NCBI GenBank assembly: GCA_030604405.1
Contig: JAUVVY010000007.1
Span: forward strand, 62,001-126,000
DNA: 64,000 nt
Direction of reading: 5' to 3'
DNA from: a bacterium
GTDB lineage: Bacteria > Armatimonadota > Zipacnadia > Zipacnadales > UBA11051
Each line of letters begins with the position of its first letter. Within the stretch, counting starts at the first letter, position 1. The notes beneath the pieces are model-generated. The model was given only the letters and a program-made list of their open reading frames with translations, ran no database searches and was not told where the DNA came from. A program made the translations under genes and the position numbers. Positions 55,195 to 61,623 of this stretch are shown here, one piece after another.

Positions 55195-55685
55195 TCGCGT
55201 AGGCCAGGCTTTCGAGCCTGGCCGGGTGCGGAAGCGCAACGGCGGCGGGCTAGAAAGCCCGCCCTACGCGGTCGTGAATGATGCCGGCTAGAAAACTAGT
55301 TATGCAGATTCTTGGTTCGTGACCGGCGCACGGCTGATCGCAGGCGATGGCGGAATGACAAGCCGTGGGCCGGATGGCCGTGAGTTTGCAGGCAAACTCC
55401 CGTCCATGCGGCCCCTCCGACAGACAACATCCAGAGCCTTGAGAGTTTTTTTCGTGCGGAGGGGCCGCGTCGAGCAGCGCCCTGTCGTATCGGGCGCTGG
55501 GAGCCCGGCCCACGCAGGACGCTGTCCTGGCCAGATCTGCACACCCAAACACCCAACGACAACGGCTGGGCCAGGCTTGGCTGTTTCGCTTCGCGAAACA
55601 GCCTGCGACAGGCCCCTCCATTACGACTAACGACCCCATGCCGTCACCATATAGCTTGAGTTGCCCAAGATTTGCATAACTACAG
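55195..55685. repeat. Hairpin repeat cluster with composite copy 3
   Basis: It contains palindromes such as CCAGGCTTTCGAGCCTGG, the module GTGGGCC...CCCCTCC at 55365-55418 (stem GAGTTTGC/GCAAACTC, repeated almost unchanged at 59440-59493), and composite copy 3 at 55458-55632, again 175 bp. In copy 3 the second stem is GGCTGTTTCGC/GCGAAACAGCC, unlike copies 1 and 2. Nothing coding is visible in 55183-55766. Confidence 0.85.
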
Positions 55686-56889: not shown

Positions 56890-57705
56890 TTAGACCTCGC
56901 GCTCGTTGAATACCAGATACCCAATCAGCAGGACTACGACCAAGTACGCAGCGCCCTGGCCCATAGTCTGCAGCATCGTGCCCCAGGGGGTGTAAGTGCC
57001 CTGCAAGATGGCCTCGCGGATGTCGAATATCTCGAAGTGCGGCAGCACCCGGTACAGAGCGCCAAGGAGGACTTGAGCAATCTGCGATGCGCCGCGGCCG
57101 GGGTCGGAAAGCTGCTGGAAGAAATCGCTCATCTGGCCCACGAAGTAGATGACGAAGGTGAAGATGACCGACAGGACCCACGAGAATAGCGTCGAAGCGA
57201 CCACTGCAATGCCCAGTACCAGCCAGATCTCGAAAAGCGCCAGGACAATAGCCTTGGCGATATTGGAATACATCGCCGCGAAGATAAAGGCGTCTTCGGG
57301 CTTAGCAGCGGCGAACTCCGGGGCCTTGATCGCAAAGACGATGTAGAAGGCGATGCCCATGAGCGCCAGGTTCACCGCGATGGTGGCAGCCCCGCCGAGG
57401 AACTTGCCAAAGACGAACTGTGCGCGGCTGACCGGTTTGGCCAAGATGGTGTGGATAGTGCGGCGCTCGATCTCGTCAGGTATCAGCCGTGTGCCCATGA
57501 AGACAGCAATCAGCATCCCGAAGAAGCGGATGGCCCCCAGGCCGATATCTATGATCATCTGGAGTTCGGCCCCGGGCTGCAGATAAGCGAAGACCCACGA
57601 GGAGCCGATAATGAGAATGGCGAAGAGCAGAATTCCATTGAGGAATCGTCGGCGCCAAGCCTCGTGAAAGGTGGCTCTTGCTACTCGGAGAATGGGACGC
57701 ATCAT
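56890..57705 (-). CDS. ABC-2 type transporter permease
   Basis: Permease of 271 residues with about six membrane spans and the ABC-2 line MGTRLIPDEIERRTIHTILAKPVSR read as GTRLIPDEIE and TILAKPVSR, typical of NosY/YhaP-like permeases with a coupling helix. Its start overlaps the stop of the ATPase gene by four bases, so the two are translated together. Substrate is unknown. Confidence 0.85.
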   Translation of the reverse strand: MMRPILRVARATFHEAWRRRFLNGILLFAILIIGSSWVFAYLQPGAELQMIIDIGLGAIRFFGMLIAVFMGTRLIPDEIERRTIHTILAKPVSRAQFVFGKFLGGAATIAVNLALMGIAFYIVFAIKAPEFAAAKPEDAFIFAAMYSNIAKAIVLALFEIWLVLGIAVVASTLFSWVLSVIFTFVIYFVGQMSDFFQQLSDPGRGASQIAQVLLGALYRVLPHFEIFDIREAILQGTYTPWGTMLQTMGQGAAYLVVVLLIGYLVFNEREV

Positions 57706-58619
57706 TCCTCGCCTCCCACGGCTTCGATGAAGACTTCTTCAAGCGTACGGTGGTGAGCGCCGAGCTGTTCGATCACCGCGCCGGCGGCCGAGGCCTCCTG
57801 GGCCGCGGCCAAAGCGCCACTCTGATCGGCATAGTAGGCTGCAAAGTGGTTGCCTACGGCCTCGGTGTGCTGTGCTGATGTCTGCAACTGCTGCGTCAAC
57901 TCATCGGAGCAATTGGATATCAGCAGTCGGTACTGGTCTTCGACCCGCAGCAGGTCCTCGACGGCGCCGCTCTGACACATCTCGCCCTGGTTGAGAATGC
58001 TAACCCGGTCGCACAGCGGCTCCATATCCTTGAGCAAGTGGCTGCAGAGGAATATGGTTTTGCCGCGGTCGCGCAGCTCCATTATCAGCTCGTGCATCTC
58101 CATGGCCCCGATCGGATCGAGGCCGGAGGTCAGCTCGTCGAGGAAGAGCAGGTCGGGATCGTTGATCATAGCCTGTGCCGCTCCAATGCGCTGGCGCATG
58201 CCGCGGGAGTACTCGCGCACGTGGATGAAGCGCCGGTCCCACATGCCGACTAAGTGCAGCAGCTCCTCGATGCGCGCAGCCAGTCGGCTCCCGCCCATGC
58301 CGAAAAGCGTGCCGTAGAAGCTGAGCAGCTCGATGCCGTTGAGGTGTTCGTAAAAGTACGGCCCCTCAGGGAGGAAGCCGATACGCTCTTTGGTGGCGTT
58401 GCTGCCCAGCGGCAGACCGAAGATCTGTCCGCTGCCACGGGTGGGGAAAATGAGGCCGAGCAGAAGCTTGAGTGTGGTGGTCTTGCCGGAGCCGTTGGGT
58501 CCCAATAAGCCAAAAATCTGCCCCTCTTCAACTTCGAGTGACAGATCAATCAGCCCCACCGGTCGTCCGGTCGCATCCTGCGAGTAGATCTTAGAAAGGT
58601 TCTCGGTCTTGATAGCCAA
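57702..58619 (-). CDS. ABC-2 type transporter ATPase
   Basis: ATPase of 305 residues. Walker A LLGPNGSGKTTTL, signature YSRGMRQRIGAAQAM, Walker B LLFLDELTSGLDP and the switch histidine in FLCSHLL are present. A roughly 90-residue tail follows the motor, as in drug- or copper-type exporters. The start is uncertain: TTG 58619 begins the domain cleanly and has GGAGGTG about 13 bases upstream, while the frame extends to 58673. It is first in the ATPase-permease-TPR operon. Confidence 0.87.
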   Translation of the reverse strand: MAIKTENLSKIYSQDATGRPVGLIDLSLEVEEGQIFGLLGPNGSGKTTTLKLLLGLIFPTRGSGQIFGLPLGSNATKERIGFLPEGPYFYEHLNGIELLSFYGTLFGMGGSRLAARIEELLHLVGMWDRRFIHVREYSRGMRQRIGAAQAMINDPDLLFLDELTSGLDPIGAMEMHELIMELRDRGKTIFLCSHLLKDMEPLCDRVSILNQGEMCQSGAVEDLLRVEDQYRLLISNCSDELTQQLQTSAQHTEAVGNHFAAYYADQSGALAAAQEASAAGAVIEQLGAHHRTLEEVFIEAVGGEE

Positions 58620-58931
58620 GCTTATGGCGAAACACCTCCGGGCGACGCGGGCGAGCTTCCCCGGCCGCTTCACGATTGCCAGTCAACTGCTAGGCTTGCT
58701 GCCATTAACCCAAACGCGAAAGTGCGAGGCAGTAGTTCCCGGCCACGCATTATAGCAGAAAAACCTTTGAGAGGCTACCGTGGTAGTGCAGATGGGTGCG
58801 TGTGCGAATTGTCGGCAGGCTGGGAAGTGCGACCCACGGCGACGCCAACAACAGACCGCGGGCGCACGGCATCAGAGCTACCGGGTTGAGGTTGCCTTTG
58901 TCTCTTTGCGAAGAAAAAAGCAAAATAGTGC

Positions 58932-58960
58932 TTGACATGGCCGGGGGCGTTGTCTATACT
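58932..58960 (+). promoter_or_regulatory. Near-consensus sigma70 promoter of a putative small RNA
   Basis: TTGACA at 58932-58937 and TATACT at 58955-58960 are separated by exactly 17 bases. The predicted start is near 58967. No open reading frame with an SD follows, which points to an RNA gene. Confidence 0.75.
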
Positions 58961-58966
58961 GCGTGC

Positions 58967-59180
58967 AGGGTTGTATAGGAATAGTTGCTGCAGCCTAAAC
59001 AGAGCTTTACTCGCAGCATCCTACCCTAGTCTGCATCTTAGCCCGAAAAAGTCGCCCCCTTGCATTGCGCCCAGGCTAAGAGCAGACATCCGTACCGCCC
59101 GACATCGCAACCAACTACGCAGGCAGGGCGGATGAAGTGCAACCCGCCGGGCTTCTCCCACAGCCCGGCGGGTGCTATTT
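58967..59180 (+). ncRNA. Putative structured small RNA, about 180-215 nt
   Basis: Downstream of the consensus promoter, the transcript would fold with GGGTTGT (58968-58974) closing against GCAACCC (59139-59145) and a long internal helix GTCTGC-CTTAGCC (59029-59043) with GGCTAAG-GCAGAC (59074-59087). A strong terminator hairpin ACCCGCCGGGCT/AGCCCGGCGGGT (59142-59173) and TATTT end it. A closing stem, a large bulged middle and a terminal hairpin of this size are compatible with 6S RNA, but sequence identity was not established; another regulatory RNA is equally possible. Confidence 0.55.
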
Positions 59181-59228
59181 CCTGCCCCTTCAGCCGGTAT
59201 AGCCGGCGCTACTACGGTGAACTCGGCT

Positions 59229-59600
59229 CATGGCAGCGGGCCGGTCGAACGACACCCCTCACCCCCGACCTCACCCACTTGACCCACTTGACCCACTCCT
59301 GCGGAGTGGGTGCCCGAGTGGGTACCCGCCTGTGGGAGAGGGGAGCAAGTCAACGGAGTCGGGCTGGAACTGTACTTATGCAATTTCTGGTTTGTGACCG
59401 ACGTACGGGCAATGGCAGGCGATGGCGGGACGACAAGCCGTGGGCCGGATGGCCGTGAGTTTGCAGGCAAACTCCCGTCCATGCGGCCCCTCCGTAAGTC
59501 TACAACAACGGCAACGGCGAGTCGGGCTGGAAGCCCGACCTCACGGGAATGTATTTGGGAGGCCCTCCGAAAGGCAAGGCGGACTTCGGCTGCCCCTCGA
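59229..59600. repeat. Hairpin repeat cluster
   Basis: It includes GACCCACTTGACCCACTT tandem pieces near 59281, the palindrome CCACTCCTGCGGAGTGGG near 59291, and module 59440-59493 that matches 55365-55418, with longer similarity from about 59377 (55304). TCGGGCTGGAAGCCCGA near 59522 is another palindrome. No gene is seen in 59181-59739. Confidence 0.75.
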
Positions 59601-59739: not shown

Positions 59740-61623
59740 ATGTTGAATGAGGAAGAGATGGCCAGGCGGTACTTAGCCGATCTGCTGTTCGATATACTGA
59801 TTTACTGCCCTGGGCCTACCAGAAGCAAAGAGCTGTCGGCGCGGCTGCCAGAAGAGCTGGATATTGCTGCGGAATTCGTTGAAACGGTCCTTACAGAGGA
59901 CGCTCGGTTCGCAGCGGCCGGGGGGTCTTACGATATCGCGTACCGGCAGGTACTCGTGCAAAGGCCGCTGGGCGGGGCGTTTGAGGCCGTGCTAAGCGGC
60001 TGTGGCAGACCGATACCAAGGGCGCTGTTGACCAGTGAACTGGTGCGTACCAAGAAGGGGAACCTGGCTTTCTTCCAGGAGCTTGTGACGAGCACGCTGC
60101 AAAGGGGTGAACTGGGCGAGCTTGACGATGAGTTGATATACCTGCCCGACTGGCTTTTCGTGCCGATGCCCGGCACCGACACCGCGCGGCTGATATATCT
60201 CAACGGTCTGACTGAGGATGCGGACCTCGCCGAGGTCATGGATACTTGCACGAATGAGAAGCTGGGCTCGCGCAGCCTGACTGAAACCGCTTACGCCGTC
60301 CTGGATGCCGCAGAGCGCTGCCTATCCAATCGGGCGCTGGGCTTTCTGGTCGGGTGCCACCAGGGCGAGAAATACGATCCGGCCGAGTTGCTGCGCCAGA
60401 TGGTATATGATGAGGAGAAGCGCTTTGTGTGCGTATCCGGCCCGGGCTGGATACTGGGCGAGTGGGTCGCCGATCTGCAAGAGTCGTTGCGCAAGCAGGC
60501 GCCCAAAGCTGAGGAGCAGGAGTACGAGGTTGACATCGAGCAGATGCTTGCCAAGGAGATACCCGCTGACAAGCGCTATGAGCTTTCCGAGGAAGAGACT
60601 GCGGGCGTGATGGCGCTGGTCGAGAATTCCGGGGCACCTTTTACGATCGAGCAGATTCTGGCCGATGTGCTTGGTCTGACGCCTAATCAGCGCAAGTATC
60701 CGCCGGCTGCGCAGGCAGTGGAGCAACTGTTTCTCGGCGTGCAGACCGTGAAGAGCCTGCAACCGGGCCGTTACCTGCGAACTGCCGCGATACCGCTGTG
60801 GGCCAGGGCCGTGCCTGAATCCCTGCTGCCAGACGAATGGATTGCGAGACTGAGCAAAGAAGGCGAACTTGTCTCGGAGGACGTTATTGTGCATCCAGAC
60901 GGCCTGGTGCCGCAAGCTCTGGAAGCAGCCGCCGAGCCATACTATGACGATGTCGGTGAGATCTACGTAGCGCCGGTGGCAGCCGACAGCGCGCAGAAGA
61001 CGCTGACCTATCCCGTACTGTATCACCACTACCTGACCGGCACCATCAAGCTCCGGCTAATGGACAGTGACTTTTTCGCCGAGGAAGAGTCACTGACGAT
61101 GGTCAATTTCGACTGCGAGGACCACGAGCTGCTCGGCTTGTGGCTGAATAAGGACGTCGGGCTCATATACGGCCTGGCAGCCTGGTATCAGACGCATCTG
61201 CCGCCATCCGGGGCGCTGCTGACTATCAAGAAGGCTGACGCCGCCGGCCGCTACGTATTGCAGTATGGTGACGAGACCGACGCACAGACGTATATCGGCA
61301 GGGAGACTATGCAGGAGCTGTTGATCTGGCGCGAGCGCTTCACTCATAGGCCCACCTCGCTGAGAGAGATCGTTGAGGTGCTACTCGCCGGCGACAAGGG
61401 GCTCACGTTTAGCCAGTTGTGGGCCCAGCTCAATGTCGTGCGCCGCACCACGCGAGCACAGCTTGCCTCGGTGCTGAGCTTTTATCACTGCTTCGAATTC
61501 GGCGAGGGCAATCGCTGGTGCCTGCACGCCGACAGGATCGCGGATGGGTATGACCGGGAAAAGCTGCAATATGTCGTGGGGCTTGAAGAGCTGTCAATTG
61601 AAGCCGACGAGGCCGACGAATAG
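59740..61623 (+). CDS. Unknown protein with about five winged-helix-like repeats
   Basis: A 627-residue soluble protein with GGAGGT upstream of ATG 59740. I do not recognise the family. At least five stretches look like winged-helix units: about residues 8-70, 78-140, 185-250, 290-350 and 530-595, several ending in a similar strand (LIYLPDW, WILGEW, YLRTAAIPLW, RWCLHADR). An acidic linker (EEQEYEVDIEQ) divides the protein. The pattern is reminiscent of HARE-HTH-type domains, which would suggest DNA or RNA-polymerase association, but this is only a fold-level guess. The small RNA lies upstream on the same strand. Confidence 0.7.
   Translation: MLNEEEMARRYLADLLFDILIYCPGPTRSKELSARLPEELDIAAEFVETVLTEDARFAAAGGSYDIAYRQVLVQRPLGGAFEAVLSGCGRPIPRALLTSELVRTKKGNLAFFQELVTSTLQRGELGELDDELIYLPDWLFVPMPGTDTARLIYLNGLTEDADLAEVMDTCTNEKLGSRSLTETAYAVLDAAERCLSNRALGFLVGCHQGEKYDPAELLRQMVYDEEKRFVCVSGPGWILGEWVADLQESLRKQAPKAEEQEYEVDIEQMLAKEIPADKRYELSEEETAGVMALVENSGAPFTIEQILADVLGLTPNQRKYPPAAQAVEQLFLGVQTVKSLQPGRYLRTAAIPLWARAVPESLLPDEWIARLSKEGELVSEDVIVHPDGLVPQALEAAAEPYYDDVGEIYVAPVAADSAQKTLTYPVLYHHYLTGTIKLRLMDSDFFAEEESLTMVNFDCEDHELLGLWLNKDVGLIYGLAAWYQTHLPPSGALLTIKKADAAGRYVLQYGDETDAQTYIGRETMQELLIWRERFTHRPTSLREIVEVLLAGDKGLTFSQLWAQLNVVRRTTRAQLASVLSFYHCFEFGEGNRWCLHADRIADGYDREKLQYVVGLEELSIEADEADE

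Follow-up and report, generated by a model that had tools for sequence, protein, structure and literature searches.

The RsaE/RoxS and FsrA small RNAs of Firmicutes carry an unpaired C-rich motif for which pairing with Shine-Dalgarno (SD) sequences is established or presumed. Most base-pairing small RNAs (sRNAs) are limited to a genus or family and, to our knowledge, almost nothing is known of regulatory RNA in uncultured Armatimonadota. The staphylococcal IsrR is an intergenic C-rich-region sRNA with its own promoter, made up of three structured domains and a Rho-independent terminator, with single-stranded C-rich regions in hairpin loops (PMC9410917, where the C-rich motif of FsrA is also mentioned). 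The DNA analyzed here (the window) is a 64,000-nucleotide stretch of contig JAUVVY010000007.1 from the class Zipacnadia, which has been described previously (PMC10290634). It carries a predicted sRNA gene comparable with that of IsrR in its structured domains, terminator, C-rich loops, own promoter, and intergenic site. No sequence relation to IsrR is claimed, and the sRNA of the window is kept through an order (Zipacnadales), whereas IsrR is kept through a genus. Its host also differs, being an Armatimonadota bacterium of 60% GC, in which C-rich seeds are less selective. The sRNA shares an unpaired C-rich motif with RsaE/RoxS and FsrA but is longer, has another architecture, and reaches the threshold of no Rfam sRNA family; its pairing with SD sequences is only proposed.

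The predicted gene (Table 1) is flanked on one side by a divergent ABC-transporter ATPase gene (57702-58673, minus strand; Pfam ABC_tran) and on the other by an open reading frame (ORF) starting at 59740. This agrees with the gene-free location given in a first-pass annotation made from the letters alone; short ORFs overlap the stretch. The TTGACA-17-TATACT promoter named in that annotation is present, matches the consensus at 11 of 12 positions, and is conserved in homologues. When 3 kb were scanned, two promoter-like sites were found where 0.8 would be expected, and the second reached a score of just 9/12. The terminator, which had been called strong, consists of a GC-rich 12-pair stem with the loop UCUCCCAC, followed by a U-containing tail, GCTATTTCCT, and its pairing is kept in homologues. 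A folding energy of −89.1 kcal/mol was predicted for the transcript (z = −4.9), with none of 200 shuffled sequences equally stable, and five homologue RNAs gave z values of −3.7 to −5.4.

Table 1. Predicted features of the sRNA locus, in positions of the window
Feature	Position	Strand	Basis
A-rich tract 5′ of the −35 box, possible UP element	58911-58926	+	Sequence
−35 box, TTGACA	58932-58937	+	Window sequence and promoter scan; kept in homologues
−10 box, TATACT (spacer of 17)	58955-58960	+	Promoter scan; kept in homologues
Predicted small RNA, about 214 nt	58966-59182	+	Start inferred from the −10 box, end from the terminator
5′ domain, partly single stranded; conserved elements are the box CAGGGTTGTATAG and CTAAACAGAGCTTTACTCGCAGC	58966-59028	+	Alignments
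Hairpin P2, GUCUGC-A-UCUUAGCC / GGCUAAGA-GCAGAC	59029-59087	+	Covariation, 12 homologues
Core with the highest conservation, CCCCCUUGCAUUGCGCCCAGGCU, comprising the top of P2, its apical C-rich loop, and a 3′ internal loop	59055-59077	+	Alignment
Hairpin P3, CCGCCC/GGGCGG	59095-59131	+	Covariation
Terminator hairpin P4, with C-rich loop UCUCCCAC at 59154-59161	59142-59173	+	Fold and covariation, 28 homologues

In a DNA search, homologues were clear within the genus of the window, and other families yielded traces. Modeling hairpin P2 (R1, followed by R2) widened the set to families f4 and f6 and one f3 genome, a P2-to-P4 model (R3) identified single copies also in f2, f3, and f5, and four further f5 genomes were obtained when DNA was searched with one of the f5 members. 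Overall, covariance models and DNA searches found homologues as single copies in 32 of the 41 examined genomes of the order, covering all six families. Absence from the nine genomes with no match is not firm, because some of these genomes are incomplete. The RNA was likewise single copy in the 1.3 Mb of the window's genome examined and in whole-genome model searches. Across 291 genomes of the phylum, no convincing homologue was found outside the order, where a single weak match (G097) had none of the other parts of the RNA, and pattern matches (L031, L032, L033, and L056) had a coding, tRNA, or unstructured context. L077 was recognized as a true homologue; weak model matches L078, L080, L084, L097 to L101, L103, L222, G016:C3, and G006:C55 were discarded, having no matching promoter, P3, and terminator.

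The promoter was part of none of the search models and therefore served as an independent check. All 28 model-found homologues carried TTGAC(A/T) with a −10 element 16 to 18 nt downstream, the first 13 having exactly TTGACA and those of f5 TTGACT, and the promoter was also present at the four further homologues from the DNA search. From the end of the −10 element to the modelled end of the RNA, the distance was 214 to 234 nt in 27 of 28 homologues. Matches to the −10 element were weaker in f4, and A-tracts recurred upstream of the −35 element in most homologues. On sequence grounds, this pattern looks like that of a strongly expressed stand-alone RNA gene. Its single-copy state, the near-consensus promoter, and its presence in 32 or more of the 41 genomes of the order together suggest that the transcript is abundant and important.

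The predicted architecture is a variable 5′ domain, the long hairpin P2, hairpin P3, and the terminator hairpin P4 in a row. The fold of the 5′ domain varies among families, and the alignments supported no helix in it common to all. A closing stem had been proposed for the RNA; the pairing concerned (AGGG/CCCU) closes only the 5′ domain rather than the whole RNA and is missing from some relatives. The long internal helix noted at the same time corresponds to P2, with 14 outer pairs. Double-sided, compensatory changes were seen in nine of these across 12 homologues, with 92% of cells paired, a result reached by none of 500 shuffles, and the P2 core contained 19 invariant columns across 10 homologues of f1 and f6. 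For P3, a hand-made alignment of 13 homologues had 76 of 78 cells paired, with exchanges among CG, GC, and UA (0/2,000 shuffles). In an alignment of 28 homologues, which was fitted to the model and so is biased towards it, 33 of the 36 modelled pairs had compensatory changes and 82% of cells were paired (0/500 shuffles), with a covariation of 0.535 compared to 0.218 in shuffles and at most 0.138 when the partner was slid by one to three columns. Double changes affected five of six pairs of P3 in these homologues and 10 of 11 pairs of P4, where 97% of cells were paired while the stem sequence had been almost wholly replaced. A MAFFT alignment of 13 sequences that was not structure fitted still gave double changes in 20 of 36 pairs (covariation, 0.411 versus 0.191 shuffled). 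With covariation present in homologous loci and the promoter conserved, the proposal of a small RNA gene with its own promoter and terminator survives and is strongly supported. Judged from these comparisons, the gene is almost certainly real and represents a new RNA family; the 28-sequence alignment suffices for a new Rfam entry. RNAalifold suggested a pseudoknot in which the 5′ box GGGUUGUA pairs with the core UUGCGCCC; this was rejected because f4 and f3 lose the 5′ box while the core CGCCC persists.

C-rich stretches recur in two of the hairpin loops. The P2 loop holds CCCCC in f1, f2, f4, and f6 and CCUCC in several members of f3 and f5, and the terminator loop holds CUCCC in f1 and GCCCC in f2, f3, f4, and f6, remaining C rich in most homologues despite the changes in its stem. 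Exceptions were f5, whose terminators no longer have a C-rich loop, and part of f3, where the C-run of P2 has disappeared; CCUCCU or CCUCCUC, an anti-SD sequence, is present in several f3 relatives. The C-runs, located near +86 and +188, were mostly predicted to be unpaired with a probability of 0.8 to 1.0. For the apical run of P2 the values were 0.82 to 1.0 in the window and close relatives and only 0.4 to 0.6 in f2 and some f3. Cytosine was predicted to be unpaired twice as often as guanine (0.40 versus 0.19), and CCC was found in none of 30 terminator loops of other genes in the window's genome.

These features could be accommodated in a mechanism in which the strong housekeeping-type promoter drives production of a structured non-coding RNA of ~214 nt, ended by the intrinsic terminator. 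The hairpins would keep the C-rich stretches of the P2 and terminator loops open for pairing with G-rich stretches of target RNA (ribosome-binding sites, for example), and this pairing could change the translation or stability of the target. Target analysis covered 888 ORFs in 1.31 Mb, ~30% of the window's genome. GGGAGA, the complement of UCUCCC in the window's terminator loop, was 9-fold enriched at ribosome-binding positions, with start sites chosen partly by SD score, and the complement of CCCCCU was 4-fold enriched at SD positions. In the same genome, complements of the f4 and f6 loops were not enriched, and the GCCCC loops of f2, f4, and f6 had no complementarity to the SD sequences seen there. 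Duplex energies of the core and loops with the 888 translation-initiation regions were no better than those of shuffled controls, nor did the P2 core pair better at initiation regions than inside genes. By analogy with the C-rich sRNAs described above, our preferred reading, at about even odds, is that the transcript is an abundant trans-acting regulatory RNA working through its C-rich loops.

The first-pass annotation had considered the locus compatible with 6S RNA and suggested a search with Rfam models of 6S and other RNAs. In this search, none of 4,227 Rfam 15 families reached its gathering threshold at the RNA of the window. The sRNA does resemble 6S in its size (about 214 nt, 6S being near 200 nt), strong promoter, intergenic position, and wide occurrence in the lineage, and a 6S RNA or second, divergent 6S would bind RNA polymerase by mimicking an open promoter. 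However, the 6S model (RF00013) had no match in 58850-59260 at E values up to 10, with only chance matches to the terminator hairpin there, and the covarying hairpins P2, P3, and P4 stand in a row without an overall closing stem, unlike a rod with a central bubble. A bona fide 6S gene lies elsewhere in this genome (G000:C76:5517-5697, locus L043:518-698; 73.7 bits against a gathering threshold of 46.4); 6S was found in most genomes of the order and, in most relatives, at another place than the sRNA. The tested homologue RNAs of all six families matched no Rfam family either, only tRNA and T-box genes being identified elsewhere in their loci. Identity with 6S RNA is thus very improbable. A cis-acting leader or attenuator of ORF 59740-61623 (627 amino acids, ~89% identical in G001), or a small protein-coding gene, is just as hard to uphold, even with this ORF on the same strand and short ORFs overlapping the stretch. 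An ORF does lie downstream, where an adjoining winged-helix protein had been annotated, but it starts 566 nt past the terminator and its winged-helix nature was not confirmed, with no Pfam match at E values up to 0.01. Among relatives, only the closest one has this ORF next to the RNA, and it is not downstream in G003, G004, or the other families; with the 566-nt gap also considered, nothing points to a cis link. Neighboring genes were common mainly within genera or families and differed between families, which argues against a leader of a neighboring gene. As for coding, gaps between the window and G001 are not multiples of three, and substitutions preserve base pairs rather than frames. A dispersed repeat lies just downstream of the RNA (59388-59550), yet the RNA itself is single copy, and together with its covariation and promoter conservation this leaves a piece of such a repeat, or chance hairpins in GC-rich intergenic DNA, with practically no likelihood. 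Own promoter, intrinsic terminator, conserved structure, and no fixed neighbor are instead features of a free-standing sRNA gene, and the promoter, the terminator, and the changing neighborhood also favor action in trans.

For such a gene, a different mode of action deserves weight. The RNA could be a distinct kind of housekeeping RNA that binds protein (a scaffold, a decoy, or a polymerase or ribosome regulator) whose P2 core binds a protein or rRNA, and the constancy of this core within f1 and f6 makes this a serious rival. The core CCCCCUNGACUUGCGCCCAGGCU is nearly unchanged within these families while the stems covary, and the RNA is order-wide and single copy, with a strong promoter and near-constant length. 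Complementarity to mRNA showed no excess, and an order-wide core of nearly 20 nt is more than most base-pairing sRNAs have, which also counts against pairing as the mode of action. However, the core drifts in f2, f3, and f5, and there is no candidate protein partner. The core UUGCGCCCAG can pair with a conserved stretch of 16S rRNA, CUGGGCGUAA, but only over 10 bp; this match ranked fourth among those of the RNA to the 16S-containing contig piece and did not surpass those made by unconserved segments, and the two halves it might comprise are in the wrong order for one duplex. Binding to 16S rRNA was consequently rejected. The RNA is also kept in genomes with no Hfq match. Hfq was identified in the genome of the window and in the majority of carriers, and a match was absent in about a third of carriers, these being draft genomes in which absence is not certain: f2, f4, the genus g10, and a few others (e.g., G007, G012, G017, G009, G014, G013, G024, and G028). 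Lineage-specific losses of Hfq are possible in f2, f4, and g10, most other families having Hfq, and the lack of a match there indicates that Hfq is not a strict requirement, unless it was missed. On this evidence, a protein- or rRNA-binding role is possible, if somewhat unlikely. It is rather doubtful that the RNA forms an undescribed, order-wide class of Armatimonadota housekeeping RNA with its own protein or ribosome partner at the P2 core and a mechanism unlike those of 6S and seed-pairing sRNAs. Under the preferred reading of a trans-acting RNA with C-rich loops, a protein may additionally bind the conserved P2 core. An order-wide RNA of this type, kept also where Hfq seems absent, would test how such RNAs function beyond the Proteobacteria and Firmicutes.

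Other observations were made at and around these loci. The repeat at 59388-59550 is intergenic; one copy, at 55313-55419, is 92% identical to it, and the 1.3 Mb of the genome examined contain over a dozen others that are related. In G003 and G004 the RNA is followed on the same strand by a tRNA gene (L003:1274-1349 and L004:1305-1380) with a promoter-like sequence of its own, and in G005 a T-box leader (RF00230; 104.6 bits) lies near the RNA homologue (L005:2729-2967; L206:2727-2965). At 59062-59066 the window has GCAUU where f1 and f6 relatives have GACUU, breaking two inner pairs of P2; this is either a natural variant or an assembly error. In the f3 relative L217, GGACCCGAA, a 5′ segment, has perfect complementarity to UUCGGGUCC, located immediately 3′ of P2, and the local left arm of P2 is a competitor for this strand. 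Comparable segments were seen in f2, and this complementarity could represent an alternative pairing.
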